A DNA stretch of 64,000 bases from positions 1-64,000 of the IMG/VR virus record IMGVR_UViG_3300040801_004314; one strand, given 5' to 3'. How positions within the stretch are numbered: the stretch's first letter is position 1; each line of letters begins with the position of its first letter. Below, in pieces: positions 1,291-17,900 of this stretch. The translations under genes were made by a program, and so were the position numbers. This stretch comes from a virus. The notes under the pieces are model-generated. The model did not search any database, had not been told where the DNA came from, and saw only the letters and a program-made list of their open reading frames with translations.

Positions 1291-1800
1291 ATGGCTAAAG
1301 AAAAGAAAATGGTTTTTACCTCTAAGATTGTAGAGGAAATGACAAATAAGATAAATGATGGTATCTTGGTTAAGAGATTCGAAAACCCTTGGTTAAAAGG
1401 TGAAGTTGGTGTTAGAAGAAGTGGGGTGGCATTTAAAATGACCAATGATGAACAACAAGAATATGTAAAATGTGCTTTAGATATACATTATTTTATTGAG
1501 AAATATTGTAAAGTTAAAAGAGAAGATGGATCAACTGGACATATAAAACTAAGAGATTACCAATCAGATATATTAGATGATTTTGTAGAGAATAGATTCA
1601 ATATATTAATGGCTAGCCGTCAGGTTGGAAAATGTGTATCTTTTAACACCATTATATCGATTGAGAAAGATAATTATCAATATGATATTAGATTGGGTAA
1701 GCTATACTATAAAATGCTCTCTAAAGAAAGAAAATTGACCTTTTTAGAAAGGTTAAAGGTTAAATTATATGATTTCCTTTATTATCTTGAAGAGAATTAG
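1291..1800 (+). CDS. terL: Large terminase, N-terminal extein plus N-intein fragment
   Basis: Residues 1-114 are the N-terminal part of a T4 gp17-like terminase ATPase, ending at ILMASRQVGK, which is the Walker A motif lacking its last Thr. Cys115 then begins an intein N-fragment (CVSFNTIISIEKDNYQ, block A) of 55 residues ending in an amphipathic helix (LERLKVKLYDFLYYLEEN). The missing Thr is the first extein residue of the gene at 3580. Trans-splicing would rebuild RQVGK-TISSS. The split lies before intein block B, so this is an atypical split with a short N-half, like the AceL-TerL split intein. The stop codon overlaps the convergent endonuclease stop by 3 bases. Confidence 0.92.
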   Translation: MAKEKKMVFTSKIVEEMTNKINDGILVKRFENPWLKGEVGVRRSGVAFKMTNDEQQEYVKCALDIHYFIEKYCKVKREDGSTGHIKLRDYQSDILDDFVENRFNILMASRQVGKCVSFNTIISIEKDNYQYDIRLGKLYYKMLSKERKLTFLERLKVKLYDFLYYLEEN

Positions 1801-3527
1801 GTAATCTTTCTTTCAAATTTAATTTTCCCACAATCCCAGACTTTTAATAAATTTAATTCATTTTCTGAAATACCAGTTTTTGACTTTTTGAAATTAGATT
1901 TATGAATCCTTTTAGCATCTAGTATATACTTATAATCAGGTCTTGTATCATATAATTTATCAAATCCTAGCTTTGTGTATAACCTACCATTAGACCAATC
2001 TTTATCAGCATAACTTATAACCCTTTCCACGTTAACACTTTTGACAAAAAAAGATAGCATTTTAGAAGCACCACCAACAATATTAGTATTTGTTAAATTA
2101 CAAAATCTAGACAAGTTCCAATTACCATCGCTCATCCTTTTTCTACCCTCTAAGTTAGTGAATGTCATTACAGAAACAAGTAAGCCGTTGTAATATAGAC
2201 CAATTTTTTTACTAGAAGGTGATTTACCCTGTATATGATTTTCATCTAAAAATTTATTAACTATTTTAGAATTATTTATAAACTTAACTTCACATTTTCT
2301 AGCCCATATCTTATCGGATATACCTAACCAATTATTTATTTGTGACTTTATTATATTATTCCTATGAATCCAATCATCTTCCCAGATGTGTATTATTCTA
2401 ATTCCCTTGTCTTTAAAATAGTTAGTTTTGTTTATATGGTAATTTTTATCCTTGAATTTATCAGAGTGGAAATATAATCCATTGAATTCAAAGCCTATTT
2501 TCAATTCTGGTAGATAAACATCAATCTCTAAGTTATCTCTGTATGATTTTATTATTTTTCCTTTATAAACACTTTCTATATGCTCTAATAGTTCTTTTTC
2601 TTTTATAGAAACTAATTCACCTATTGGATTACATACGGTACATATTGGTATATTTGCATTTTTCCTCTTTAGATAGTTATCAGATTTTATTTTGAAAACA
2701 CAACCAGACTTACACTTGAACTTATGTGTCTTGTTTCCTTCATAAGAAATATGATTTATATCACTTCCTATTATAGTATCTACTAAGCTATTACTTGTTT
2801 TTTTATAATTATCAACACCCCATTTTTTGATATTATCTTCTTTTACTTTTTTCTTACATTCATCACTTTTTGAATAAGAAGATACACCCCATTTACTTAA
2901 GCTTGTTTTAGTTACCTTTTTTTTATAGTTATCTGTTTTTGAAAAATTATCAACACCGTATTTATTCAGAAGGGTTTCTTTAATTTTAATCTTAACATCA
3001 TCTAATTTGAATGGATTATCAACACCGTACTTGTGCATAACAGTTTCTTTGAATTTGGTTTTATATTCATCTGTTTTGGAATAGTGTTCAACACCCCATT
3101 TATCTATTGCTGTTTGTTTTATTTTTTCTTTATATTCATCTGTTTTAGAATAATGTTCAACACCCCATTTATCTTTTATAGATGATCTTAAGTTAGCTTT
3201 TATTTTATCACTTTTCATAGGATTATCAACGCCATAGTTACTTATATTTGTTTCTTTCCGTTTTTCTATGATACATCTTTTCTCAGAGCAACAGTCTTTA
3301 CTACCATCTTTTTTAATTTTTCTATACTTTCTCCACTCAGTAGAATATTCTTTATTGCAAAAATCACATTTAACATCAACTTTATATCCAGATCCATCAG
3401 GTAGTAACTCTATGGGCAAATGTAAAATTTCATCTAATTCTATGTCTATCTTATCACCATAAGACTTTAATAACTTTTTGTAGTTATAGGATGTGACTTT
3501 AATTTTAGAATAACTTGATAGTAACAT
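1797..3527 (-). CDS. Homing endonuclease A, within the split-intein terminase
   Basis: A 576-aa freestanding endonuclease on the strand opposite the terminase halves. The N-terminal ~80 residues carry a CxxC zinc-binding-like segment (CDFCNKEY). Residues ~90-250 hold seven ~23-aa repeats of the form KWGVDxxxKSDxxKxKxKET, probably DNA-binding. The C-terminal half has a Vsr/PD-(D/E)xK-like nuclease core (EIDVYLPELKIGFEFNGLYFH, then HIWEDDW), followed by a conserved module with WARKCEVK, NHIQG, GGASK and YADKDWS motifs. It matches the organisation described for fractured genes in phage metagenomes, where a Vsr-like endonuclease sits between split intein halves. It probably cleaves an intein-less terminase gene to spread the element. 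Four full-length relatives lie in this window. Confidence 0.85.
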   Translation of the reverse strand: MLLSSYSKIKVTSYNYKKLLKSYGDKIDIELDEILHLPIELLPDGSGYKVDVKCDFCNKEYSTEWRKYRKIKKDGSKDCCSEKRCIIEKRKETNISNYGVDNPMKSDKIKANLRSSIKDKWGVEHYSKTDEYKEKIKQTAIDKWGVEHYSKTDEYKTKFKETVMHKYGVDNPFKLDDVKIKIKETLLNKYGVDNFSKTDNYKKKVTKTSLSKWGVSSYSKSDECKKKVKEDNIKKWGVDNYKKTSNSLVDTIIGSDINHISYEGNKTHKFKCKSGCVFKIKSDNYLKRKNANIPICTVCNPIGELVSIKEKELLEHIESVYKGKIIKSYRDNLEIDVYLPELKIGFEFNGLYFHSDKFKDKNYHINKTNYFKDKGIRIIHIWEDDWIHRNNIIKSQINNWLGISDKIWARKCEVKFINNSKIVNKFLDENHIQGKSPSSKKIGLYYNGLLVSVMTFTNLEGRKRMSDGNWNLSRFCNLTNTNIVGGASKMLSFFVKSVNVERVISYADKDWSNGRLYTKLGFDKLYDTRPDYKYILDAKRIHKSNFKKSKTGISENELNLLKVWDCGKIKFERKIT

Positions 3528-3579: not shown

Positions 3580-5829
3580 ATGAATAAAGTTTTGATAAGT
3601 TTCTTAATAAGAGCAACACGTAAGTTAATAAGATTTTTAGAATGGATAGAGTATATAAATTTAAAATTAGATGAAAATGATGTATCTAAGAAAATAATTA
3701 ATAGTATAAAACTCTCAAATATAAAAGTAAAAACTGATACTGGCTTACAACCAATTTCCGATTTACATATAACACAGCCTTATAAACATTATATTTTAAA
3801 AACAAAGAGTTATGAATTAAAATGTGCAGACAACCATATTGTTTTTGATAAGGATTTAAATCAAGTTTTTGTTAGAGATATTAAGAACGGTGATTATATA
3901 CAAACAGATAATGGTTTAGAAATAGTAGAAAATATATCAAAAACAAGATTTAAAGCATCTATGTTTGATACTACAGTAGACCATCCAAATCACAGGTATT
4001 ACACTAATGGAATATTATCACATAATACTATTTCTTCGTCTATTTTTATACTGCACTTTTTATTATTTAATAATGATAAAAACGTTATGATTATTGCTAA
4101 TAAAGGCGATACTGTGGTCGAGATTGTTGACAAAATAAAATCTATTTATACATTACTGCCATTTTTCCTAAAGAACGGAGTTAAGGTTTGGAATCAAAAA
4201 TCTATAACATTTGAAAATGGATGTAGGATAAAAACATCTGCAAGAACAAAAACACCTGCGGTTGGTTTTACCATTGACCTTTTGTACCTTGATGAGTTTG
4301 CACACATACCATCGAATATTATAAATGCCTTTTATACAGCAGCCTATCCAACTGTATCAGCTATTCAAAACTCTAAAATAATAATAACCTCAACACCTAA
4401 TGGTATGAATTTATTTCATAAGCTTCTTACTGATGCTGAGAGACCTGATGGTGATCCACAGAAAAACAACTATAACCCAATAAGAGTATATTGGTATCAA
4501 GTTCCTGGTAGGTTTGTAACGTATGTAAGGTTAAATGATCATAAACTATACGAACAAAAGTTAGAAGCTGATTATGTTTATGATAAGGTATATGAAGAAT
4601 TCGGTGACAAGACAAAAGTGGAAATGTATTGGAATAATGACATGCAAAAAAATGTTATTGATGTTCATAATAACGAATCGTGTGAAGATTCTGATGTTAA
4701 GAGTTTCAATTTTACAAAGCCAGATGGTAAACAAGTTTCACTTATGGAAGTTGCAGAACTTACAACGTGGAAGGAAGAAGCTATAAAAGATATTGGTGGA
4801 GAAGATGCTTTTAACCAAGAGTATGGTCTTAGGTTTGTGAATGCTAGTAAATCGTTATTAAATGAGAATATAATTGATCATTTACTTAATAATAAAATAA
4901 ACTACGAATGGCAAGAAATATATGAATTTGAAGATAAGCTTCCATTTTCCTATGATGGGTTAACATGGGTTGATGATCATGATATATTTAATCCGATAAA
5001 AAGAAAGGAATATAAGATAATCATGTCCGTTGATTTAGCAGAGGGGTTAGGTCAGGATTATTCTGTTATAAATATATTTAGGATAAATAACAAAGATAAA
5101 GAGTTAATTGAATCTCAAAAGGAAAAATATGATTCCATTACTGACTTCTTTAAATTGCAACAAATTGGGATATATAGAAGTAATATAATTTCCTTAAAGC
5201 AATTAGCTGAGGTTCTTTATATTCTATGTTTTGATTACTTTAATCCCGACAATTTAAAAGTGGTTTTGGAGCTTAATAATTATGGAAATACTTTACTTGC
5301 GGAATTGCCACACGTATTTGATGGGATGAACGATTATGGTTCATTTATATTCACTAGGTATAAACATAGAGTGGATTCGGAAGAAAAGAAAGTGGGATTA
5401 AAAGTTGGATCTAATAAAAACTTAATCGTCAAAGATTATCAAGATTTGATGCTTAGTAAATCATTTGATATAACACATGAAGATACTATAAGAGAAATAA
5501 CAACTTTTGTGAAGCACACTACAAGCTCTGGTAACATAAGATATGCGGCAGATTCAGGTAATGACGATTGCGTTATGACAATTGTTAATGCTAGTTCAAT
5601 GTTTGATAAGGAGGAATTCTCAGAAATGGTAAACGAGTGGATGTCTAAATATATGGACAAAGAAATGTCTGAGTATATAAATAACTGTATGAAAAATTCG
5701 GAATACATAGAACCAGTAGATTACGGACATTTCCTTAGTGTTAAAAGAAATACATTAGGTAGTAAATCTACTGGTTATGGTACAAGTAGGGGTTATGGTA
5801 ATAAAGGTACTGATTGGTTCAAAAGATAA
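3580..5829 (+). CDS. terL: C-intein fragment plus large terminase C-terminal extein
   Basis: Residues 1-149 are an intein C-fragment: amphipathic N-terminal helix, block B-like TKSYELKCADNHIVF, block F region (DTTVDHPNHRYYTNGI) and the terminal LSHN, followed by Thr150 as the +1 nucleophile. Residues 150-749 continue the gp17 ATPase from the Walker A Thr: TISSSIFILHFLLFN, Walker B LLYLDEFAH (D238/E239), STPNG coupling motif, and then the RNase H-like packaging nuclease with MSVDLAEGLGQDY (D485) and DSGNDDC (D662/D663). The rebuilt protein would be about 714 residues, somewhat larger than T4 gp17. It pumps and cuts DNA at the portal. All catalytic residues are present. Confidence 0.95.
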   Translation: MNKVLISFLIRATRKLIRFLEWIEYINLKLDENDVSKKIINSIKLSNIKVKTDTGLQPISDLHITQPYKHYILKTKSYELKCADNHIVFDKDLNQVFVRDIKNGDYIQTDNGLEIVENISKTRFKASMFDTTVDHPNHRYYTNGILSHNTISSSIFILHFLLFNNDKNVMIIANKGDTVVEIVDKIKSIYTLLPFFLKNGVKVWNQKSITFENGCRIKTSARTKTPAVGFTIDLLYLDEFAHIPSNIINAFYTAAYPTVSAIQNSKIIITSTPNGMNLFHKLLTDAERPDGDPQKNNYNPIRVYWYQVPGRFVTYVRLNDHKLYEQKLEADYVYDKVYEEFGDKTKVEMYWNNDMQKNVIDVHNNESCEDSDVKSFNFTKPDGKQVSLMEVAELTTWKEEAIKDIGGEDAFNQEYGLRFVNASKSLLNENIIDHLLNNKINYEWQEIYEFEDKLPFSYDGLTWVDDHDIFNPIKRKEYKIIMSVDLAEGLGQDYSVINIFRINNKDKELIESQKEKYDSITDFFKLQQIGIYRSNIISLKQLAEVLYILCFDYFNPDNLKVVLELNNYGNTLLAELPHVFDGMNDYGSFIFTRYKHRVDSEEKKVGLKVGSNKNLIVKDYQDLMLSKSFDITHEDTIREITTFVKHTTSSGNIRYAADSGNDDCVMTIVNASSMFDKEEFSEMVNEWMSKYMDKEMSEYINNCMKNSEYIEPVDYGHFLSVKRNTLGSKSTGYGTSRGYGNKGTDWFKR

Positions 5830-8586: not shown

Positions 8587-8613
8587 AAATAAAAACAAAT
8601 AAACATATATAAT

Positions 8614-8647
8614 AAAAAAATCCAGATAATTTATCTGGATTTTTTTT
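8614..8647. terminator. Bidirectional terminator
   Basis: A perfect stem TCCAGATAA/TTATCTGGA is flanked by A7 and T8, so it works in both directions between the convergent genes ending at 8586 and 8682. Confidence 0.85.
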
Positions 8648-8681
8648 GTCTTTACTTTAAATATTATAATTAATTTAAAGG

Positions 8682-8984
8682 CTATTCCTTAAGCTTTTCT
8701 ATTTTTCTATCTATATCCTTTATAGAAAATTCTACCCATTCAGGTATATTAATCTCATCAAAAGATGGTAAGTCACTTGGATAATCTTTTGATAAGAATT
8801 CATTCAAGTCAACGTCATTCATGTAGTCTTCAGCCCACGTTGATTTTAGATTTCGATAAGCTACATCAAATTCAATAAGGTGTTTTTTTGTTTTCTGTAG
8901 AAAATTAATTTCATCTTGGTTAGTAGCTTCCCCACCTAAATCCTCGTTTACATTTGTGTATTCTTTAAATAGTTTAATTGCCAT
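8682..8984 (-). CDS. Uncharacterised small protein
   Basis: A 100-aa, mostly helical acidic protein with no recognised family. It begins MAIKLFKEYTNVNED, a variant of the IKxFExY N-terminus found on several proteins here. Its terminator is shared with the acidic-tail gene on the other strand. Confidence 0.65.
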   Translation of the reverse strand: MAIKLFKEYTNVNEDLGGEATNQDEINFLQKTKKHLIEFDVAYRNLKSTWAEDYMNDVDLNEFLSKDYPSDLPSFDEINIPEWVEFSIKDIDRKIEKLKE

Positions 8985-9032
8985 ATTATTATTTCTTTTT
9001 TATTATATATTAAATATTTTTCATAGAAAACC

Positions 9033-9063
9033 TTGTGAGAACTATTTATTTGTTTTATATTTG
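9033..9063 (+). promoter_or_regulatory. Host-type promoter of the tracrRNA/CRISPR transcript
   Basis: TTG at 9033-9035 and TATATTTG at 9056-9063 with 20 bases between them fit the Bacteroidota vegetative promoter. Transcription would begin near 9070, just before the anti-repeat of the first tracrRNA, and could read on into the array. Confidence 0.7.
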
Positions 9064-9077
9064 CAGTGTATTAATTG

Positions 9078-9200
9078 ATTACCTTAACACAACCAACGAT
9101 AGCTTAGGCTATCGGGAGTGAATTTCAGTAGATTAAGTAGAGCAAGACATACATTGGCTCGATATACAGTAACTCCACTAACCTACACTAGTAGGATTTA
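9078..9200 (+). ncRNA. tracrRNA copy 1
   Basis: Bases 9078-9093 (ATTACCTTAACACAAC) are an anti-repeat complementary to the first 15 bases of the CRISPR repeat (GTTGTGAAAGGTAAT) with one small internal loop. Downstream come a hairpin CGATAGC-TTAG-GCTATCG (9097-9114), a long-range pair GGAGT/ACTCC enclosing GAGC/GCTC (9140-9160), and a final hairpin CCTAC-ACTA-GTAGG (9182-9195) followed by an A/T-rich tail. Copy 2 at 9651-9766 keeps every stem, with a compensatory G-C to A-T change in the first hairpin and different loop bases in the last, which is direct evidence that the structure is selected. Confidence 0.85.
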
Positions 9201-9300
9201 AAAATTAAGGTAAAAGTTCTTTTTTTATTGATTAAAAAATGATTTCTAATAGTCATTAATGTGGTTAACTTACTAACAACCAATTATTTATAAGAGGTAG
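9201..9300 (+). promoter_or_regulatory. Leader-like AT-rich spacer before the array
   Basis: One hundred A/T-rich bases between tracrRNA copy 1 and the first intact repeat, with no ORF. The degenerate repeat is at the far end of the array, so the leader should be on this side. No clear promoter box is visible in it. Confidence 0.4.
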
Positions 9301-9666
9301 GTTGTGAAAGGTAATCATATTAGTACTATTCACAACGGTATTTAATAAACTAGCTATGGATGTTATGTTGTGAAAGGTAATCATATTAGTACTATTCACA
9401 ACTATGGAAATCCCGACCCGAACAAGCCAGAGGTTGTGAAAGGTAATCATATTAGTACTATTCACAACAAAATGCAAGATATACTAACTAGAGAGCTAGT
9501 TGTGAAAGGTAATCATATTAGTACTATTCACAACATAATAGAAATGTAAAGTCCACCTCATATAGTTGTGAAAGGTAATCATATTAGTACTATTCACAAC
9601 AAATTTAATAATTGATTGCAGTGATTGTCTGTTGTGAAAGGTAATATAATAATACCTTAACACAAC
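9301..9666 (+). CRISPR. Type II CRISPR array, 5 spacers
   Basis: Five identical 36-bp repeats start at 9301, 9367, 9433, 9499 and 9565, each beginning GTTGTGAAAGG and ending ATTCACAAC (self-complementary ends). A sixth, degenerate 36-bp unit lies at 9631-9666. The five spacers are all exactly 30 bp (9337, 9403, 9469, 9535, 9601). 36-bp repeats with 30-bp spacers are typical of type II systems. No spacer matched another part of this window by eye; spacer 2 is distinctly richer in GC than the phage, suggesting a foreign source. The repeat identity and uniform spacing suggest a maintained array, but no adaptation genes are nearby. Confidence 0.97.
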
Positions 9667-9775
9667 CAACGATAACTTATGTTATCGGGAGTGAATTTCA
9701 GTAGATTAAGTAGAGCAAGACATACATTAGCTCGATTTAGTAACTCCACTAACCTACTTTGGTAGGATCTAAAAA
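9601..9775 (+). ncRNA. Natural single-guide-like RNA (spacer 5 + half repeat + tracrRNA copy 2)
   Basis: After spacer 5 (9601-9630), the last repeat keeps only its first 15 bases (9631-9645, GTTGTGAAAGGTAAT). A few A/T loop bases follow, then the anti-repeat AATACCTTAACACAAC (9651-9666) and a full second tracrRNA body: hairpin CGATAAC-TTAT-GTTATCG (9670-9687), GAGC/GCTC (9713-9733), GGAGT/ACTCC and hairpin CCTAC-TTTG-GTAGG (9753-9766). Half repeat and anti-repeat would fold on each other (6 bp, 1x2 internal loop, 6 bp), giving the same layout as an engineered single-guide RNA: guide, repeat, loop, anti-repeat, scaffold. The fold is read directly from sequence; use by Cas9 is inferred. Confidence 0.75.
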
Positions 9776-9791
9776 TAAATACATATTATAC

Positions 9792-9821
9792 TTGTTATAT
9801 TAATAAATAGTGTTATATTTG
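9792..9821 (+). promoter_or_regulatory. Host-type promoter of cas9
   Basis: TTG at 9792-9794 and TATATTTG at 9814-9821, spaced by 19 bases, give a predicted start near 9828, just upstream of cas9 and separate from the RNA transcript. Confidence 0.7.
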
Positions 9822-9854
9822 TCAAAAATAAATAATAACTAAAAATAAAATATT

Positions 9855-12800
9855 TTGTCAAGTAACAACTCACTTCTGGATAATTTTTTAAAAAATAAAA
9901 ATATTGATAACATCATGGGCATTGATGTTAATAAAAATAACTACGTCTCTTATTTAGTTATTGATGGTGAGCATAATCAATACTTCAAAATATTTAATGA
10001 AAAGAAAAAAACTACTGTCAGTAACACACTGAAAAATAAAAAGAAAAGAAAAGAAAACTTTTTCGACACCTCTAGCAAAATATTAAAATCCAGTCACACA
10101 AAACTTCATAAACACCGAAAAGAATTAAAGGGAGATTATAAATTCAACCCAGTGTATTTAGCTCATTGCCTAGTTAATAAAAATGAGCTTCCTAAAATGA
10201 ACTTAACTGTTGATGGGGTCTCTTACTCAGATGAAGATGTTGCATTCTATATTATATCTTTGTGGATGTTGAACAGCAGGGGCGCACAATCTCAAAAGTC
10301 AAAAATAAAATTAAGTAAAGAAGATCAAAAAGTAACAAAGAAACTTTCTAAAAAGGGTGTAAAAGCAATAGGTAAAAGAAAGTTAGAAGATATTATAAAA
10401 TCAATACCAAATGATTTAGAAGATCACAAGGTTAGTTATTATCCTACTATCAGGTCTAATAAGATAAATATGATGTTTAGCCCTAATGATTTAAGTTTTT
10501 TTAATCAAAATGATAACAAAGAGTTTTATATTGATATCATAAGTAAATTAGGTGGTAAATATTCTAGGAATGCTAGAAAATTAGCTAACATTATATTTTA
10601 CAATAAAAACCAGAATGAGAGAAAAAATGAAAAGAGAGGTGACTGTTCTTTTTTGAATCATAAAAAAGAATCACATAAAAGGGGTGATAAAAATAATCCT
10701 TATCAAGAATTAAGAATTACTCACTTGAAATTAAACACCTCTAACGAAAAAGATATTAAAGAACTCAATGATGAGTATAAAGATAAGTTTATAAAAAAGC
10801 TTACAGATAAGTCAAATAATGGGTTTATCAATAGTGTTATCATAGATATCTTAAAGTATGATCCGTTTTTTGATAACGATGAGCTATTTTTTAAAAAGGG
10901 TAAAAATAGCATTTTGAACATAGATAATGTAGCAGATATATTTTCTTCAATTTACAATTCTTACGAGACAGGCAAGCCATTAAAGTCATTTAAAGAGTTT
11001 AATTTGACAGCATCCAAGAAAGATTCAATATTAGAATATTTTGAAGAAAGTGGTAGTGTGGTGAGTGATGTTTCTGATAAATTTGCCAAGATATACTCTA
11101 ACTTTTTATTTAAGGGCAGAATCAATAGAACAGGCAATATGCTTAACTTATTAGTCTTGAATAAGGTCTATTCTACTGATGAGGGATATGATAAAAATAG
11201 AGCATGTATATCTAATAAGAAAATCAATGATGTTAAATCTTTTATGGAGAAAGATCTAGGTCTTCTAAAGATTAGCGAAATAGATAATATAATAAATGAT
11301 AAGAGCATTAGGTTTAGGTCTAATGGTTTGGAAGCTAAATTAAAGTTCGAAATTCAGAATTATATAAACAGTGTTTTGAAAAAAAAATGGACTGATCCTA
11401 ACGTACAACAAAAAATGTTTTTAATGGTAGATAATATAATGAATGTTATATTTTCGGATAATCCAAAAAACAGAACTCAACTCATACAAGGAATTGAAAA
11501 AATAAGAAATATAGATTATGTTATAGAATCTACTAGAGCTAAGTCTAACAAGGAAGAGAATGCATTCGAACATATTTTCAATAGAGTGATTAAAAATGTG
11601 TCTCTAAATAAATATCCTTCTAATAATTATAGTAGGTCTAGAATCTTATATGAAAGTGGTGGCATTGATGTTTATGACGGTAACCCTTTATCACTTGAAG
11701 ATACTGATAAAGACCATGTTGTTCCACGCAGTTGGGTAACTTCATATGGTAATAATATATCCAATTTAGTTCCGTGTAAACATTCATTAAACAAGGAAAA
11801 GGATAATAACCTTCCTTTATCTAGTGACTTAAATTTGAACAAGTCTGGATTTAAAAAGCAATTGAATAATATCTATGGAACATCCAGAATTGATGATATT
11901 TGTGAGGATATTTCTATTTATATAGAAGAAGAACACGGAGGTAAACTTTATAATAATGACGTTTGTTATATTGATAGCCATTTGGACTTTTACCATAAAG
12001 AAACTGATAAAAAAGGCAATATAAAGACTAATGGCATATTTAAAAAAATAGACAAATATGACCTTAGAAGACATTTAGTATCATATTTTAATAAAAAAAT
12101 GAACATTTTGTTAATGGAATCGAGTAAAGATGAGTTAGAGATGGAGTTTGGATCTTCTCTACTGTCTAATATTTCTCACTCGGTCTCTGCACTAACTGAT
12201 ATCCTAACTGATGTTTTCGGTGTTGATAGAAGTAGAATAAGCTACACACCAAGACAATTTTCTTATATAGGGAAAATTAGAGGTAAGAGAATATTAGATT
12301 TACCAAAAGATAGAGATTGGAATCATCATCACATGGTAGACTGCTTTTTGTTATTATTGTTAAAACATAGAAAGAATGTATTCCACTCAAAGTCTACTAG
12401 GGAAACTAAATATAAACCTAACTTAAATGATGTTAGTGATATGTATAATTATTTTAAAGAGATGGATATTTATATAAATGACGATAAGGATATTGAGGAT
12501 ATAATAAATGTTCTTAAAATGGTCGAAAATAATACTAAGCCTACATTTAAAAAGGTTAGATCTTTTAAAAAGAGAGTTTCCGTAGATGATAATGGTAAAA
12601 AAACAACTACTATGTCACCACGTGGTAAAATGTTCGGGGATACAATATACGGTTCTTATAAAAAGGATGGCGTTGTGATGTCTAAAGGGTATGAGGTCAA
12701 GGGAATTGTTTTGGATAAGGATAAAGATGGGAAGGATATAAAACAGGACAATGTAATAGTTAAGAATCCAAACACTGGTGAAGACTTCATTTTAGATAAG

Positions 12801-13355
12801 AAGGATAAAAAAAATAGTAATTTACGTAAAATGCCTGAAGGTGCTTATATTGAAAACACTACTAATAAAGAGGAAAATTTATACTTGGGAAAGAAAGTCT
12901 CAAAAAATAAATATCATTCAAAAAAGAAGGGAAGTAATGCATCTCATTCAGTATATTTTCATTTAAATGATAAAGGGAAAGCTGTATCAAAAGTGGTAAA
13001 TAAGTTTAGTATGATAGCAAAAAAAGATGAGAATGGGAATGTTGGCGTTAAGTGCAGTGAAGAAATAAAACGTGAAAATAATATCCCAAGTGATGCTATT
13101 AGAATATCAAAAAAGGATGTATTTAATTTTAGTGGGTATATACATAATTTTAAGGGAGTTGATTATAAGATGAACTCTCTTTATAAAATAAATGCTATAA
13201 ACAAAAATATAATAGTAACTGAAATAAGTACTAATTTAAGCTATAAAACCAAAGAAGAGGAAGCTGAGTTTCTAGTTAGTAATAAAATTGCATTTAGTAT
13301 TTCTTATGAGAAATTCTATAAACATTTTGGTAAAACCATTCATTTAGTAAAATAA
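9855..13355 (+). CDS. cas9: Phage-encoded Cas9 endonuclease
   Basis: A 1166-aa RNA-guided nuclease of type II-C-like size. RuvC-I is IMGIDVNKNNYVSYLVI with Asp24. It is followed by a Lys/Arg-rich bridge-helix-like stretch (~50-95), a helical recognition lobe (~100-545), RuvC-II DYVIESTRAK (Glu558), an HNH domain with DHVVPRSW (His621), Asn637 and Asn646 in NLVPC...LNKEKDN, and RuvC-III NHHHMVDCFLLLL (His826, Asp829). A ~330-residue C-terminal PAM-interacting region follows. All catalytic residues are intact, so cleavage activity is expected. The frame opens with TTG at 9855; the first ATG (9915, Met21) would leave only three residues before the RuvC Asp, truncating the first strand, so TTG is preferred. 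No cas1, cas2 or csn2 adjoins it. Possible role: attack on competing phages or plasmids. Confidence 0.96.
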   Translation: MSSNNSLLDNFLKNKNIDNIMGIDVNKNNYVSYLVIDGEHNQYFKIFNEKKKTTVSNTLKNKKKRKENFFDTSSKILKSSHTKLHKHRKELKGDYKFNPVYLAHCLVNKNELPKMNLTVDGVSYSDEDVAFYIISLWMLNSRGAQSQKSKIKLSKEDQKVTKKLSKKGVKAIGKRKLEDIIKSIPNDLEDHKVSYYPTIRSNKINMMFSPNDLSFFNQNDNKEFYIDIISKLGGKYSRNARKLANIIFYNKNQNERKNEKRGDCSFLNHKKESHKRGDKNNPYQELRITHLKLNTSNEKDIKELNDEYKDKFIKKLTDKSNNGFINSVIIDILKYDPFFDNDELFFKKGKNSILNIDNVADIFSSIYNSYETGKPLKSFKEFNLTASKKDSILEYFEESGSVVSDVSDKFAKIYSNFLFKGRINRTGNMLNLLVLNKVYSTDEGYDKNRACISNKKINDVKSFMEKDLGLLKISEIDNIINDKSIRFRSNGLEAKLKFEIQNYINSVLKKKWTDPNVQQKMFLMVDNIMNVIFSDNPKNRTQLIQGIEKIRNIDYVIESTRAKSNKEENAFEHIFNRVIKNVSLNKYPSNNYSRSRILYESGGIDVYDGNPLSLEDTDKDHVVPRSWVTSYGNNISNLVPCKHSLNKEKDNNLPLSSDLNLNKSGFKKQLNNIYGTSRIDDICEDISIYIEEEHGGKLYNNDVCYIDSHLDFYHKETDKKGNIKTNGIFKKIDKYDLRRHLVSYFNKKMNILLMESSKDELEMEFGSSLLSNISHSVSALTDILTDVFGVDRSRISYTPRQFSYIGKIRGKRILDLPKDRDWNHHHMVDCFLLLLLKHRKNVFHSKSTRETKYKPNLNDVSDMYNYFKEMDIYINDDKDIEDIINVLKMVENNTKPTFKKVRSFKKRVSVDDNGKKTTTMSPRGKMFGDTIYGSYKKDGVVMSKGYEVKGIVLDKDKDGKDIKQDNVIVKNPNTGEDFILDKKDKKNSNLRKMPEGAYIENTTNKEENLYLGKKVSKNKYHSKKKGSNASHSVYFHLNDKGKAVSKVVNKFSMIAKKDENGNVGVKCSEEIKRENNIPSDAIRISKKDVFNFSGYIHNFKGVDYKMNSLYKINAINKNIIVTEISTNLSYKTKEEEAEFLVSNKIAFSISYEKFYKHFGKTIHLVK

Positions 13356-13361
13356 AAAAAT

Positions 13362-13559
13362 ATGATAAACTGGAAAAAAGATAATGTTCATAATACAGAA
13401 GAAGGTTGGGTTGGTGATACTATGTATTTCGATATCGAAAGACTAAATGGTACAGAAGAAGTAATAATATACCAAATGAAAAAACCATTGGGTAATCAAT
13501 TAAAAATAAAAAGCATGGAAGATGCTAAGAAGTATTGTGAGAAAATAATTAATTTTTAA
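13362..13559 (+). CDS. Small uncharacterised protein downstream of cas9
   Basis: A 65-aa protein (MINWKKDNVHNTEEGWVGDT) starting 6 bases after the cas9 stop and probably co-transcribed with it. It looks like a small beta-rich fold ending in one helix (MEDAKKYCEKIINF). No known family was recognised. The tight spacing makes it the best candidate for a Cas9-associated factor, but nothing in the sequence proves that. Confidence 0.65.
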   Translation: MINWKKDNVHNTEEGWVGDTMYFDIERLNGTEEVIIYQMKKPLGNQLKIKSMEDAKKYCEKIINF

Positions 13560-13569
13560 ATATAGATAA

Positions 13570-13827
13570 ATGAAAAGAAAAGAAGTTTACAAAGCAATTG
13601 ACACTGAACTAGATTATGTTCAAAAGCAAGAGAAAATCCAAAAATCACATGTGGTAGAAGATTTCCCTCTATCATCAGGATTGGAAGCAATTAGGTACAA
13701 CCTTGATAAAGCTAACAAGGAATGGTATACCGAACAAGATCCATATCCTAACACGATGGAATATATGAGAAAAATAGCTGGTATATGTGTTAAAATGGGT
13801 ATTAAATATGATATGCCTGATAGGTGA
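13570..13827 (+). CDS. Small helical protein, weakly MazG/phage-family-like
   Basis: An 85-aa helical protein. The pattern (GLEAIRYNLDKANKEWYT, then TMEYMRKIAGICVKMGIKY) resembles small phage proteins with a 'LL...A...W...IRKIAGIAVRCMEEHG' layout, sometimes annotated as nucleotide-pyrophosphohydrolase-like. Metal-binding Glu residues of MazG are not obvious, so activity is unsupported. It lies 10 bases after the preceding small gene, in the cas9 operon direction. Confidence 0.65.
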   Translation: MKRKEVYKAIDTELDYVQKQEKIQKSHVVEDFPLSSGLEAIRYNLDKANKEWYTEQDPYPNTMEYMRKIAGICVKMGIKYDMPDR

Positions 13828-13851
13828 TTAGGTAGATATAAATTTATTTTG

Positions 13852-13859
13852 TATATTTG
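13852..13859 (+). promoter_or_regulatory. Host-type -7 box TATATTTG
   Basis: TATATTTG sits 26 bases before the next start codon (13886). No good TTG is visible at -33. Confidence 0.45.
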
Positions 13860-13885
13860 CCTATAATAATTTTTAAACATACAAA

Positions 13886-14095
13886 ATGTACCACTCAGTA
13901 AAAGAAATAGGTAAAAGGTATTCTAAACTTTCTCAAAAAAGAAATGATCTTAAATTATTTAAGTCTGATGGCTTTTTCAATTTTGCCAAAAGCAATATTA
14001 AGAAATATTCACTTATAGAGGAAGGTGATGATATTTTAGTCAGCACATGGGATTGTAATGATCTCATTTCTGATTACAGGAAAACAATTATTTGA
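13886..14095 (+). CDS. Small uncharacterised protein
   Basis: A 69-aa Lys-rich protein (MYHSVKEIGKRYSKLSQKRN) with a helical first half and a beta-like C-terminus. No family recognised. It has its own TATATTTG box upstream. Confidence 0.6.
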   Translation: MYHSVKEIGKRYSKLSQKRNDLKLFKSDGFFNFAKSNIKKYSLIEEGDDILVSTWDCNDLISDYRKTII

Positions 14096-14101
14096 TTTTA
14101 C

Positions 14102-14132
14102 TTGTGTAATCTAATACATTATCTTATATTTG
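14102..14132 (+). promoter_or_regulatory. Host-type promoter, duplicated at 33873
   Basis: TTG at 14102-14104 and TATATTTG at 14125-14132 with 20 bases between. Bases 14118-14141 are repeated exactly at 33873-33896, before another small gene. Confidence 0.6.
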
Positions 14133-14148
14133 TATAAAACTAAACACT

Positions 14149-14376
14149 ATGGAAAATACATTGAAATCAGTAAAGAGAGAACTGTCAGGAAATCAATATG
14201 TTCAAAGCATTTTTGACCCTGTTCAAACACATGCCATTTATGGTATATCTTCTAGTCAAGAAGTATCTGAGTTGAAGATTAAGATTAAAAATAGTGGACT
14301 AGGGAATAGGTTTAGACAGATTAAGAACCGTTTTGGAAATTATATTCTTTGTTTCAAATTAATTAATAAAAAGTAA
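14149..14376 (+). CDS. Small uncharacterised protein
   Basis: A 75-aa basic protein (MENTLKSVKRELSGNQYVQS) ending in a beta-strand (GNYILCFKLINKK). No family recognised. It begins a run of closely spaced small genes to 16.2 kb, typical of host-takeover accessory regions. Confidence 0.6.
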   Translation: MENTLKSVKRELSGNQYVQSIFDPVQTHAIYGISSSQEVSELKIKIKNSGLGNRFRQIKNRFGNYILCFKLINKK

Positions 14377-14381
14377 AAGCT

Positions 14382-14555
14382 ATGGAATGGATTAAAATAG
14401 ATCCTAAGATAAAAGATTCGATACCAAACGAACCTGTGTGGGTTTACACAATTAAAACCAAAAAAGTTGTATTTGTTCCTAAGGATGAACACATCCCTTT
14501 TAACTTTTGTAGCCATTATAGATTATTGGATAAGCCAGAACCCCCTAAAGATTAA
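14382..14555 (+). CDS. Very small uncharacterised protein
   Basis: A 57-aa frame beginning MEWIKIDPKIKDSIPNEPVW, 5 bases after the previous stop. It reads WVYTIKTKKVVFVPKDEHI, a beta-hairpin-like core, and ends in a proline-rich tail (KPEPPKD). Codon use looks like that of its neighbours. No family recognised. Confidence 0.55.
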   Translation: MEWIKIDPKIKDSIPNEPVWVYTIKTKKVVFVPKDEHIPFNFCSHYRLLDKPEPPKD

Positions 14556-14556
14556 T

Positions 14557-14730
14557 ATGTTCAAAGAATCAAAAAATAGTACTAAAAACCTATTGAGGAA
14601 AAAAGGCATCTTAGTAGATAGTAAAAGAAAAAGAGGTATTAAAACAATGCTCACTAAAGATGGAGTTGATTTAGGTTACTACGATGCTGATGAAGCTCAT
14701 GATAAATTTTTGAAAAATAAATATGCATAA
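14557..14730 (+). CDS. Very small basic protein
   Basis: A 57-aa Lys-rich protein (MFKESKNSTKNLLRKKGILV). The ATG at 14557 follows the previous stop directly; the longer frame from 14467 would overlap that gene entirely. The C-terminus (DLGYYDADEAHDKFLKNKYA) suggests a short helix. It may bind nucleic acid. Confidence 0.5.
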   Translation: MFKESKNSTKNLLRKKGILVDSKRKRGIKTMLTKDGVDLGYYDADEAHDKFLKNKYA

Positions 14731-14848
14731 CACAGTTAATTTTACATTAGAAGATGCAAAGGAAATTATAAAATCTAAGGATATAGATTGGGATACTTTC
14801 TGTGGTTTTTCATTTAGTAAGCAAAGACACATTCTTAATAGTCATTAA
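14723..14848 (+). CDS. Very small uncharacterised protein
   Basis: A 41-aa frame (MHNTVNFTLEDAKEIIKSKD) that begins inside the previous gene's last codons, an 8-base overlap suggesting translational coupling. No family recognised; the shortness lowers confidence. Confidence 0.4.
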   Translation: MHNTVNFTLEDAKEIIKSKDIDWDTFCGFSFSKQRHILNSH

Positions 14849-14857
14849 TAATGATAT

Positions 14858-15070
14858 ATGAAGTTTAAAATACAGAAGATAGTAGATAAATACAATGAAG
14901 GTGAATTATCATCTTCTAAAATGCAAAATGAGATAATGAAATTATCTATTGTCAAAAAGAATGATATTAAAGTATGTAGGATATGCGAAAAACATATACT
15001 TATGCTTGATGGAACTTGTCCTAAATGCACTATTTCTTTATCTACCTCATTAGAAGCAAGTGATTTATAA
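14858..15070 (+). CDS. Small zinc-ribbon protein
   Basis: A 70-aa protein with a basic helical N-terminus followed by VCRICEKHILMLDGTCPKC, two CxxC knuckles 12 residues apart that should bind one zinc. It could bind nucleic acid or a host protein. It sits in the small-gene run. Confidence 0.65.
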   Translation: MKFKIQKIVDKYNEGELSSSKMQNEIMKLSIVKKNDIKVCRICEKHILMLDGTCPKCTISLSTSLEASDL

Positions 15071-15074
15071 TATT

Positions 15075-15413
15075 ATGATGGGTAATAGAATAGAGGATAC
15101 AGTTTGTTATAAAGGTTTTAGGTTTTGTAAACATAGCGTTGAAATAATAAAAACGCAATTATCTAATTTTGAATTTGCCTACATTGCAAAAGATGGTAGA
15201 CATAGCAGAATTCATATGGCTACAGGATATGACGATGAGAGACATGAAGGCATCATACTTGAAATAACTAACCGTGGTATAGATATAAATGCTGCATTTT
15301 CTACTAAGGCAGAACCTAGAATAGAAACAATGACTAAAGATTGGGAAAAACTCCTTAGTACACATATAAAAAAATCTAAAGAGGTCTGGATTTTTTGTGA
15401 TGAAAATATATAA
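15075..15413 (+). CDS. Uncharacterised protein
   Basis: A 112-aa protein (MMGNRIEDTVCYKGFRFCKH). ATG 15075 is chosen over the GTG at 15060 because it avoids most of the overlap with the preceding gene. It is an alpha/beta mix with no motif I can name. Confidence 0.6.
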   Translation: MMGNRIEDTVCYKGFRFCKHSVEIIKTQLSNFEFAYIAKDGRHSRIHMATGYDDERHEGIILEITNRGIDINAAFSTKAEPRIETMTKDWEKLLSTHIKKSKEVWIFCDENI

Positions 15414-15430
15414 CTTTAAAATAATATAAA

Positions 15431-15643
15431 ATGTGTGAAATTGAAATGGATAAGGAATTCTGGAAAATAGAGTATATATCCTGCGAGGGAAATTATAGAT
15501 GGGCTACTGCAAGAAGCCCAAAAGGCTGGGATGAGCAAGAAGTGAAAAGTGCCATACCAAAGGGATCTATGGGTGACGATGTAAGTTTTATTACCGAAGT
15601 CTCTCCATCACTTGATAACGATTTCTTTTGGGATTTAGAGTAA
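15431..15643 (+). CDS. Small uncharacterised protein
   Basis: A 70-aa acidic protein (MCEIEMDKEFWKIEYISCEG) with several aromatic residues (RWATARSPKGWDEQE). It looks beta-rich, ending FFWDLE. No family recognised. Confidence 0.6.
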   Translation: MCEIEMDKEFWKIEYISCEGNYRWATARSPKGWDEQEVKSAIPKGSMGDDVSFITEVSPSLDNDFFWDLE

Positions 15644-15660
15644 TATTTAATATTTACAAA

Positions 15661-15966
15661 ATGGAAGATGTAAACAAAAAGATAAAAGATTTAAAAAAGT
15701 TTATTAAAGATAAAACTGACCAAGGAACAGCAAATTATGTAGGTAAAGAAATTAGAGAAATTTGTGGGTTGGTGGAGTCTGAATCAAGAAAAGGCGGTGA
15801 TGTTATAGATGAGTGGATTCCTTTTAATCAAGAAAACTATAACCTATACGCTAAACTTGTTATGGAAAATAATTGCCTTATAAAATATGATAATGGTGAT
15901 ATACAGAAATATCAAGATAAAGAACAACCTTTTGCAACAATAACACATTTTAAAACGATAAAATAA
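15661..15966 (+). CDS. Uncharacterised helical protein
   Basis: A 101-aa protein (MEDVNKKIKDLKKFIKDKTD). The ATG at 15661 follows an A/T-rich gap after the previous stop; the upstream frame to 15628 overlaps that gene and is not needed. It ends 0 bases before the next ATG. Confidence 0.6.
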   Translation: MEDVNKKIKDLKKFIKDKTDQGTANYVGKEIREICGLVESESRKGGDVIDEWIPFNQENYNLYAKLVMENNCLIKYDNGDIQKYQDKEQPFATITHFKTIK

Positions 15967-16212
15967 ATGGTAGAAAGAAAAAAGTGGGAAGAATTTAGAA
16001 ATACTGGGCTAGTGGTTATCATTAATCAAATCCTCCATGCATTTGGATGGGCAATAGTTTTCGAAGTAGAAAATGACCAAATAAAAGATGTATACCCAGC
16101 CCGAGTTAAATTTAGAGGTTTCAGTAATGATAGAACTGATAAAGCATATAAAAAAATAGGTAAATACTTAAAAGACAATATTGAAGACCTTTATAATGAA
16201 AGTAATCAATAA
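15967..16212 (+). CDS. Conserved phage protein of unknown function
   Basis: An 81-aa protein. The pattern KWEEFRNTGLVVIINQILHAFGWAIVFE, then YPARVKFRGFS, is one I recognise from many phages as a conserved uncharacterised family (W-EEFR-x-GLLW-xNRILH-FGWAIV). No activity is established. It directly abuts the preceding gene. Confidence 0.7.
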   Translation: MVERKKWEEFRNTGLVVIINQILHAFGWAIVFEVENDQIKDVYPARVKFRGFSNDRTDKAYKKIGKYLKDNIEDLYNESNQ

Positions 16213-16256
16213 TGCGTAAAACCTTTACATATTAAAATATTTTAATATATAAAGGC

Positions 16257-17297: not shown

Positions 17298-17900
17298 ATG
17301 AAAGTATTAGAAAGTTATAAAGAATTTACTTCTAAAATAAGGGCTAAGTATTTTGGTTATGAAATAGTGAAAACTGAACCTATTGAAAACTTATACAAAT
17401 ATAAAGATCACAGAAGGTTACAAACATTTTACCACAAAGGTTTAAAGTGTGTTGAATGTGGTAGAGAAGCTACACAGATAGGTCATGGTTTGGATAAAAT
17501 GGGGGATATACATATTGATGTTTATACAGATGACTTTTTTCCTTTAAATGTTGATCACATAATACCAAAGTCAAAAGGTGGATCTAATACACTTGAAAAT
17601 TATCAGCCTATGTGTGTTAAGTGTAACCAAGAAAAGGGAAATGGAGATGATAATACTGGTAGACCTAAAAAAACTAAGAGGCAAATAAGAAAAGAAATTA
17701 AAAAATGGATTGGTGAAAATCCTGAAAGTAGGGATATAGAAGTTGGTGATGTTGTTTACAAATCTACATATGGTGATAAACTTGGTGAGGTTGAGCATAT
17801 ATTAGAACACCCATTCCAAAAAGGTAGAATGGGCGTTAAAATAAAGGGAAATAAAACCTCAATATATTCTATGAATCAAGTATTTAAAAAGTTAGATTAA
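17298..17900 (+). CDS. HNH endonuclease
   Basis: A 200-aa protein. CVECG (~residue 53) and MCVKCNQEKGN (~residue 108) are paired CxxC zinc knuckles around the nuclease core PLNVDHIIPKSKGGSNTLEN, with the catalytic HH-like DH and the following Asn. A basic linker (RPKKTKRQIRKEIKKW) leads to a C-terminal beta domain (GDVVYKSTYGDKLGEVEHIL). The start MKVLESYKEF resembles the shared N-terminal motif. It is probably a freestanding homing or restriction-type nuclease. Its 3' end overlaps that of the clamp loader by 9 bases. Confidence 0.85.
   Translation: MKVLESYKEFTSKIRAKYFGYEIVKTEPIENLYKYKDHRRLQTFYHKGLKCVECGREATQIGHGLDKMGDIHIDVYTDDFFPLNVDHIIPKSKGGSNTLENYQPMCVKCNQEKGNGDDNTGRPKKTKRQIRKEIKKWIGENPESRDIEVGDVVYKSTYGDKLGEVEHILEHPFQKGRMGVKIKGNKTSIYSMNQVFKKLD

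Follow-up and report, generated by a model that had tools for sequence, protein, structure and literature searches.

Does a phage encode, at the very end of its CRISPR (clustered regularly interspaced short palindromic repeats) array, a guide RNA in which spacer, repeat and trans-activating CRISPR RNA (tracrRNA) are already joined in one molecule, as they are in an engineered single guide RNA (sgRNA)? The question is raised by IMG/VR virus record IMGVR_UViG_3300040801_004314, in which an array, two tracrRNA copies and a gene for a Cas9-like protein adjoin one another. The window, i.e., the whole stretch of DNA analysed, comprises 64,000 nt (positions 1-64,000) of this 100,664-bp record, and both the window and the record were used as search scopes. 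On balance, the sequence makes it somewhat probable that the locus encodes a naturally fused sgRNA for the phage Cas9. The elements concerned, including the CRISPR RNA (crRNA) half of the terminal repeat, are the following.

9077..9205, + strand: tracrRNA copy 1, anti-repeat GATTACCTTAACACAAC (9077-9093) plus body, suited to action in trans
9301..9600, + strand: CRISPR array with five identical 36-nt repeats and spacers 1-4 of 30 nt (sequence read, repeat search)
9601..9630, + strand: spacer 5, AAATTTAATAATTGATTGCAGTGATTGTCT, 30 nt like every other spacer, putative guide of the fused unit (sequence read)
9631..9645, + strand: repeat half (crRNA side) of the terminal unit, matching the canonical repeat at all 15 nt
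9644..9652, + strand: 9-nt A/T loop linking the repeat half to the anti-repeat, at the position of the engineered tetraloop (RNAfold)
9653..9666, + strand: copy 2 anti-repeat TACCTTAACACAAC, the final 14 nt of the terminal unit, pairing in cis with 9631-9643
9667..9770, + strand: tracrRNA copy 2 body, with stem 9670-9687, stem 9688-9692/9743-9747, an inner hairpin and a terminal hairpin at 9753-9766

The repeat, GTTGTGAAAGGTAATCATATTAGTACTATTCACAAC, starts at 9301, 9367, 9433, 9499 and 9565 with a period of 66 nt, and one exact period after repeat 5, in register, stands a sixth 36-nt unit, GTTGTGAAAGGTAATATAATAATACCTTAACACAAC (9631-9666). The first-pass annotation of this DNA had described a last repeat that keeps only its crRNA half. 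This holds for the first 15 nt, which match the repeat, but the unit has the full 36-nt length and its 3' half reads as an anti-repeat. Spacer 5, repeat half, 9-nt loop, anti-repeat and scaffold (to ~9770) follow one another on one strand without a gap, and the single-guide layout proposed in the annotation, with all these parts contiguous with spacer 5, is borne out by the sequence read and the repeat search. The anti-repeat motif TACCTTNNCACAAC occurs twice in the window (at 9080 and 9653) and not at all in 100 shuffles, and TACCTTAACACAAC, searched over the whole window, is found at 9653 and 9080 only. The architecture of the array end is confirmed, and it is unusual. No match to the exact repeat, a tracrRNA 18-mer or the hairpin pattern was found in the viral contig collection, nor to the hairpin pattern in the genome contig collection. 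An array on the opposite strand was rejected, because the repeat half it would provide is a much poorer partner for the anti-repeats (-7.5 vs. -19.8 kcal/mol). An assembly artefact is also unlikely, given that copy 2 bears its own scattered differences and that the shared half-repeat is just 15 nt.

When folded with RNAfold, the repeat half and the anti-repeat form a hairpin of 6 bp, a 1x2 internal loop and a further 6 bp, closed by the 9-nt loop, which reproduces exactly the pairing that had been read from the letters. The structures predicted 3' of this hairpin are a 7-bp stem, then a 5-bp stem with an inner hairpin, then the terminal hairpin. The 135-nt RNA from 9631 to 9765 reaches -34.1 kcal/mol, compared with -21.35 +/- 3.38 for dinucleotide shuffles (z = -3.77), and none of the 200 shuffles equals it. 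For an RNA beginning at spacer 5, the predicted probability of the sgRNA hairpin is ~0.96.

The body of copy 2 matches that of copy 1 (9080-9205), and the homology of the copies starts at the anti-repeat. Ten substitutions and a single 2-nt gap separate the two scaffolds, and all core pairs (21/21) and all paired anti-repeat bases (12/12) are kept between them. One pair in the stem 9670-9687 is compensatory, with a G-C to A-T double change in copy 2 relative to copy 1. If 10 substitutions are placed at random, the observed pair retention is equalled in 0.9% of trials (P ~0.009), the test being based on a single pair of sequences with copy 1 taken as the starting point. The survival of core and anti-repeat pairs beyond that given by random placement argues that both scaffolds are under selection. 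The earlier claim of a complete second tracrRNA is likewise upheld by a contiguous body that matches copy 1 and retains every core helix.

The two copies differ in their fit to the canonical repeat. The anti-repeat of copy 1 pairs with it over 6 + 10 bp (16 bp, -19.8 kcal/mol) and that of copy 2 over 6 + 6 bp (12 bp, -13.3 kcal/mol). Because copy 1 fits the repeats over 16 bp and copy 2 over 12 bp only, the comparison suggests a trans role for copy 1 and a cis role for copy 2. The 3' tail of copy 1, TTAAGGTAA (9205-9213), is exactly complementary to part of its own anti-repeat, TTACCTTAA (9079-9087), in mimicry of the repeat. In a longer copy 1 transcript the fold closes over the anti-repeat; copy 2 has no such tail.

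Two candidate promoter elements were returned by a consensus scan.

9056..9063, + strand: exact Bacteroidetes-type -7 box TATATTTG, a few bases before tracrRNA copy 1, with a predicted transcription start near 9070
9814..9821, + strand: second exact Bacteroidetes-type -7 box TATATTTG, upstream of cas9

Since ~0.7 exact boxes are expected by chance per strand, the two are suggestive only. No further exact -7 box was found by the scan on the + strand between them, and a pattern scan of the + strand from 8647 to 9900 found no intrinsic terminator. With no terminator seen in this interval, one transcript running from the copy 1 promoter through the array and copy 2 is possible. A promoter of copy 2's own in the loop (TATAAT) was ruled out by inference, as its start would fall within the anti-repeat.

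From the unbroken order of the parts, their pairing, the fold predicted for them and the retention of core helices, we infer the following course. Transcription of the + strand through the array end would yield one RNA with spacer 5 as its guide, trimmed at its 5' side at spacer 5. The terminal repeat half and the anti-repeat would form a short stem closed by the 9-nt loop, and the tracrRNA body behind it would bind the phage Cas9. The fused unit may thereby load Cas9 without a trans tracrRNA and without cleavage of the repeat:anti-repeat duplex, and direct it to cut or bind a target, and spacers 1-4 would be served in trans by tracrRNA copy 1. The most likely use would be that of a fixed, ready-to-use guide directed at either the host or a competing element by a system no longer able to acquire spacers.

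The protein that would receive such a guide is encoded directly behind it.

9855..13355, + strand: divergent, II-C-like Cas9 of 1166 aa from TTG 9855, with an in-frame ATG at 9915 immediately preceding the RuvC-I motif GIDVN

The gene starts 85 bp downstream of copy 2, and an array and a tracrRNA with a matching anti-repeat adjoining cas9, a type II-C feature, are present. The sole Pfam match is the HNH domain (HNH_4, E 2.2e-6, 28.0 bits against a cut-off of 22), which also aligns with a profile of eight Cas9s (hhalign E 6.9e-6, probability 84.5%). A search with the eight-Cas9 profile (hmmsearch) gave weak colinear segments, namely a REC motif, HNH and a C-terminal G-x-x-x-x-x-T-x-Y-G motif; shuffled controls outscored the real protein in the whole-sequence comparison, so that only the HNH match and the motif order carry weight. 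Residues D24 of RuvC-I, H621 of HNH and H825/H826/D829 of RuvC-III fall in invariant columns of a nine-protein alignment, and the RuvC-II candidate DYVIES was picked by eye only, with no Pfam RuvC match. The protein is probably a catalytically intact Cas9. No whole-protein match to curated Cas9 models was found in NCBIfam, PADLOC, TIGR01865 or PDB sequences. Relatives were likewise not found in viral contigs (full protein and motif fragments), genome contigs (fragments), PHROGs or a tblastn search of phages and plasmids, where the contig scans rely on short exact peptides that distant relatives may escape. By these searches the Cas9 is an orphan, distant from every model searched.

Several points weigh against a fused guide. 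The case is built on DNA sequence and predicted folds. The Cas9 is so divergent that HNH alone scores clearly, and its AlphaFold2 (AF2) single-sequence model has a predicted local distance difference test (pLDDT) score of 31. No relative of the Cas9 was found in the 28 related records searched, including four genomes of 634-735 kb; no relative examined carries the locus, and the evolutionary evidence is limited to two copies in one genome. No convincing target of spacer 5 was found in phages, plasmids or viral contigs. One viral contig has an 18-nt exact match to it (23/30 overall), about the number expected by chance, and blastn of the array spacers against phages and plasmids returned only weak, chance-level pieces, with no convincing protospacer for any spacer. 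In addition, an RNA that retains repeat 5 is predicted at equilibrium to pair this repeat with the terminal unit, which leaves the sgRNA hairpin at ~0.5%.

This competing fold could be the real one, which we regard as quite improbable. In it, anti-repeat 2 would be bound by the 5' half of repeat 5 and the terminal repeat half by the 3' half, placing spacer 4, not spacer 5, in cis with scaffold 2 through a long looped hairpin, and spacer 5 would be no guide. Such a structure is the minimum free energy fold of 9565-9770 (-54.1 vs. -49.8 kcal/mol for the local hairpins) and has an identical repeat:anti-repeat geometry. However, each local hairpin (~-10 kcal/mol) should form first during transcription. 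The sgRNA hairpin recovers to 88-90% in the array transcript under local pairing (span of at most 60 nt), and to 51-55% with the 5' half of repeat 5 blocked, an effect expected of copy 1. Furthermore, canonical repeats 4 and 5 pair mutually in the fold in the same manner, so such pairing is a general property of the palindromic repeat. Since the sgRNA hairpin faces a rival in repeat 5, formation of a single guide is probably sensitive to trimming, to local folding or to copy 1. It is also conceivable, if unlikely, that copy 2 is an ordinary second tracrRNA gene at the array end, whose hairpin is always cut by RNase III or another nuclease, leaving a dual RNA as the final guide. Type II guides generally mature when RNase III cuts the duplex of repeat and anti-repeat (PMC8730458), and copy 2 is able to pair with the canonical repeats over its 6 + 6 bp (-13.3 kcal/mol). 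Yet copy 2 shows no promoter of its own in the scan and fits the other repeats less well than copy 1. A 12-bp stem broken by a 1x2 loop is also, by general knowledge, short for RNase III.

Alternatively, the terminal unit could be a decaying by-product, a functionless tracrRNA duplicate brought into the last repeat by recombination. The arrangement is known from one genome only, no clear terminator stands behind copy 2, and phage arrays are often small and without acquisition genes (PMC7162821), all of which would fit such an origin. We nevertheless consider it very unlikely, as the substitutions avoid the core stems or compensate in them and spare the anti-repeat (P ~0.009), and the fused hairpin is precise and in register. 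A single guide with a regulatory role, by which Cas9 would repress its own or a host promoter through a partial match, seems less probable still. The precedent is tracr-L, a known natural single guide (PMC11417352). As the first-pass annotation had pointed out, two short words of spacer 5, TAATTGATT and TTGCAGTG, are indeed present in the promoter region of copy 1. The words are out of order there, word pairs like these arise by chance elsewhere in the 100 kb record, and no seed match of at least 10 nt to spacer 5 exists elsewhere in the 100,664 bp. The self-regulation proposed for spacer 5 is therefore not supported, and a guide matching the cas or tracr promoter, as in tracr-L, was not found among seeds of at least 10 nt in the record.

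The naturally fused sgRNA may be placed among known one-piece and two-piece guides. CRISPR-associated IscB loci have been reported in which an array leads into an omega-RNA. In IsrB and IscB (OMEGA) systems, the omega-RNA is an ancestral one-piece guide, later split into crRNA and tracrRNA, and, like the phage unit, joins guide and scaffold in one uninterrupted RNA, with a 5' stem and nexus (PMC9581776). The phage protein, in contrast, has the size of a Cas9, with an array and a separate trans tracrRNA to serve it, and no omega-RNA-like family was detected by Rfam in the window. For these reasons the phage fusion seems to be a secondary re-fusion and not an ancestral omega-RNA. The dual guides of type II-C are matched in the 36-nt repeats, 30-nt spacers, copy 1 with its anti-repeat and a Cas9 with colinear II-C-like motifs. 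However, the tracrRNAs reviewed are encoded "not contiguously with the array" (PMC8730458), whereas phage copy 2 is contiguous with the last spacer.

The nearest precedent named by the annotation, tracr-L of the Streptococcus pyogenes II-A system (Workman et al. 2021), agrees with the published descriptions: an extension of the tracrRNA, not a spacer, guides repression of the cas promoter (PMC11417352, PMC8730458). Both are one natural RNA bearing a guide and a tracrRNA scaffold for Cas9, but the tracr-L guide is a short 5' tracrRNA extension matching the cas promoter, whereas the phage unit has a full 30-nt array spacer, includes the crRNA half of a real repeat and has no self-target found in the record. 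Another tracrRNA and Cas9 have been described together on a phage (PMC11656645); there RuvC is dead and sequestering of host crRNAs is proposed, whereas RuvC-I and RuvC-III residues are kept in the present Cas9. The open-access literature, with partial coverage, yielded no Cas9 case in which an array spacer is fused to a full scaffold. Judged from its sequence, the locus would be classed as a Cas9 guide RNA with a natural cis fusion. Whether this cis-encoded sgRNA evolved from the array end, giving two tiers of guides, with one spacer independent of tracrRNA and processing and the others reliant on a trans tracrRNA, and a natural reversal of the split of omega-RNA into crRNA and tracrRNA, we consider an evenly balanced proposition. 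If true, evolution would have reached the engineered single-guide design, usually presented as a human invention, through an array spacer in cis to a full scaffold, and the case would inform how arrays and tracrRNAs join and split. A guide independent of trans tracrRNA and RNase III could suit a phage unable to count on host factors.

The terminase of the virus is 70% identical to that of LR745206 (634 kb) and 65% to that of LR756502 (642 kb), both members of the Mahaphage clade, with predicted infection of Bacteroidetes (PMC7162821). By this relationship the virus is a Mahaphage relative, a very large bacterial phage, in agreement with the phage setting given earlier to the CRISPR locus. Cas9 loci in huge phages had been reported before, and the present Mahaphage relative shares the small array and the lack of detected Cas1/Cas2 with the systems of that study. 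Its text, however, leaves tracrRNA unmentioned, and its four largest genomes have no detectable relative of the phage Cas9 (PMC7162821). Cas1 and Cas2 were not found in the 100,664-bp record, which is probably a fragment of a larger genome. Comparison with related phages delimits the locus as an insertion.

8587..16256, strand not assigned: inserted stretch with the entire CRISPR-Cas9 locus and about nine small genes (comparison with related phages)

This stretch is missing from six related records (some near-identical to one another), in which the flanking genes are near neighbours. Nearly all of its about nine small open reading frames (ORFs) are without a Pfam match and without a counterpart in related phages; the ORF at 15967-16212 matches phrog_16397 (function unknown). 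A type II locus with Cas9, Cas1 and Cas2 is found on a Persicobacter plasmid (plasmid coordinates 6570-7850 and 1416-1443), and its repeat has TGTGAAAGGTAAT in common with the phage repeat. Its array was rejected as a direct model, as the best anti-repeat there pairs with the other half of the repeat.

Elsewhere in the window, a free-standing HNH endonuclease gene at 17298-17900 is unmatched in related phages and is another probable mobile insertion. The ORF at 631-1287 reads FIHIPKTAGTSF..., with a likeness to a sulfotransferase-type motif, and is also unmatched in related phages. The large terminase is seemingly split by intein halves (1291-1800, + strand; 1797-3527, - strand; 3580-5829, + strand). 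Its first ORF stops with a stretch resembling an intein N half (from ...GKC/VSFNTI); the C half, with ...GILSHN/T as its end, is on the next ORF, and a DUF7487 gene on the opposite strand sits between the two. The corresponding terminase pieces of the relatives lie close together.
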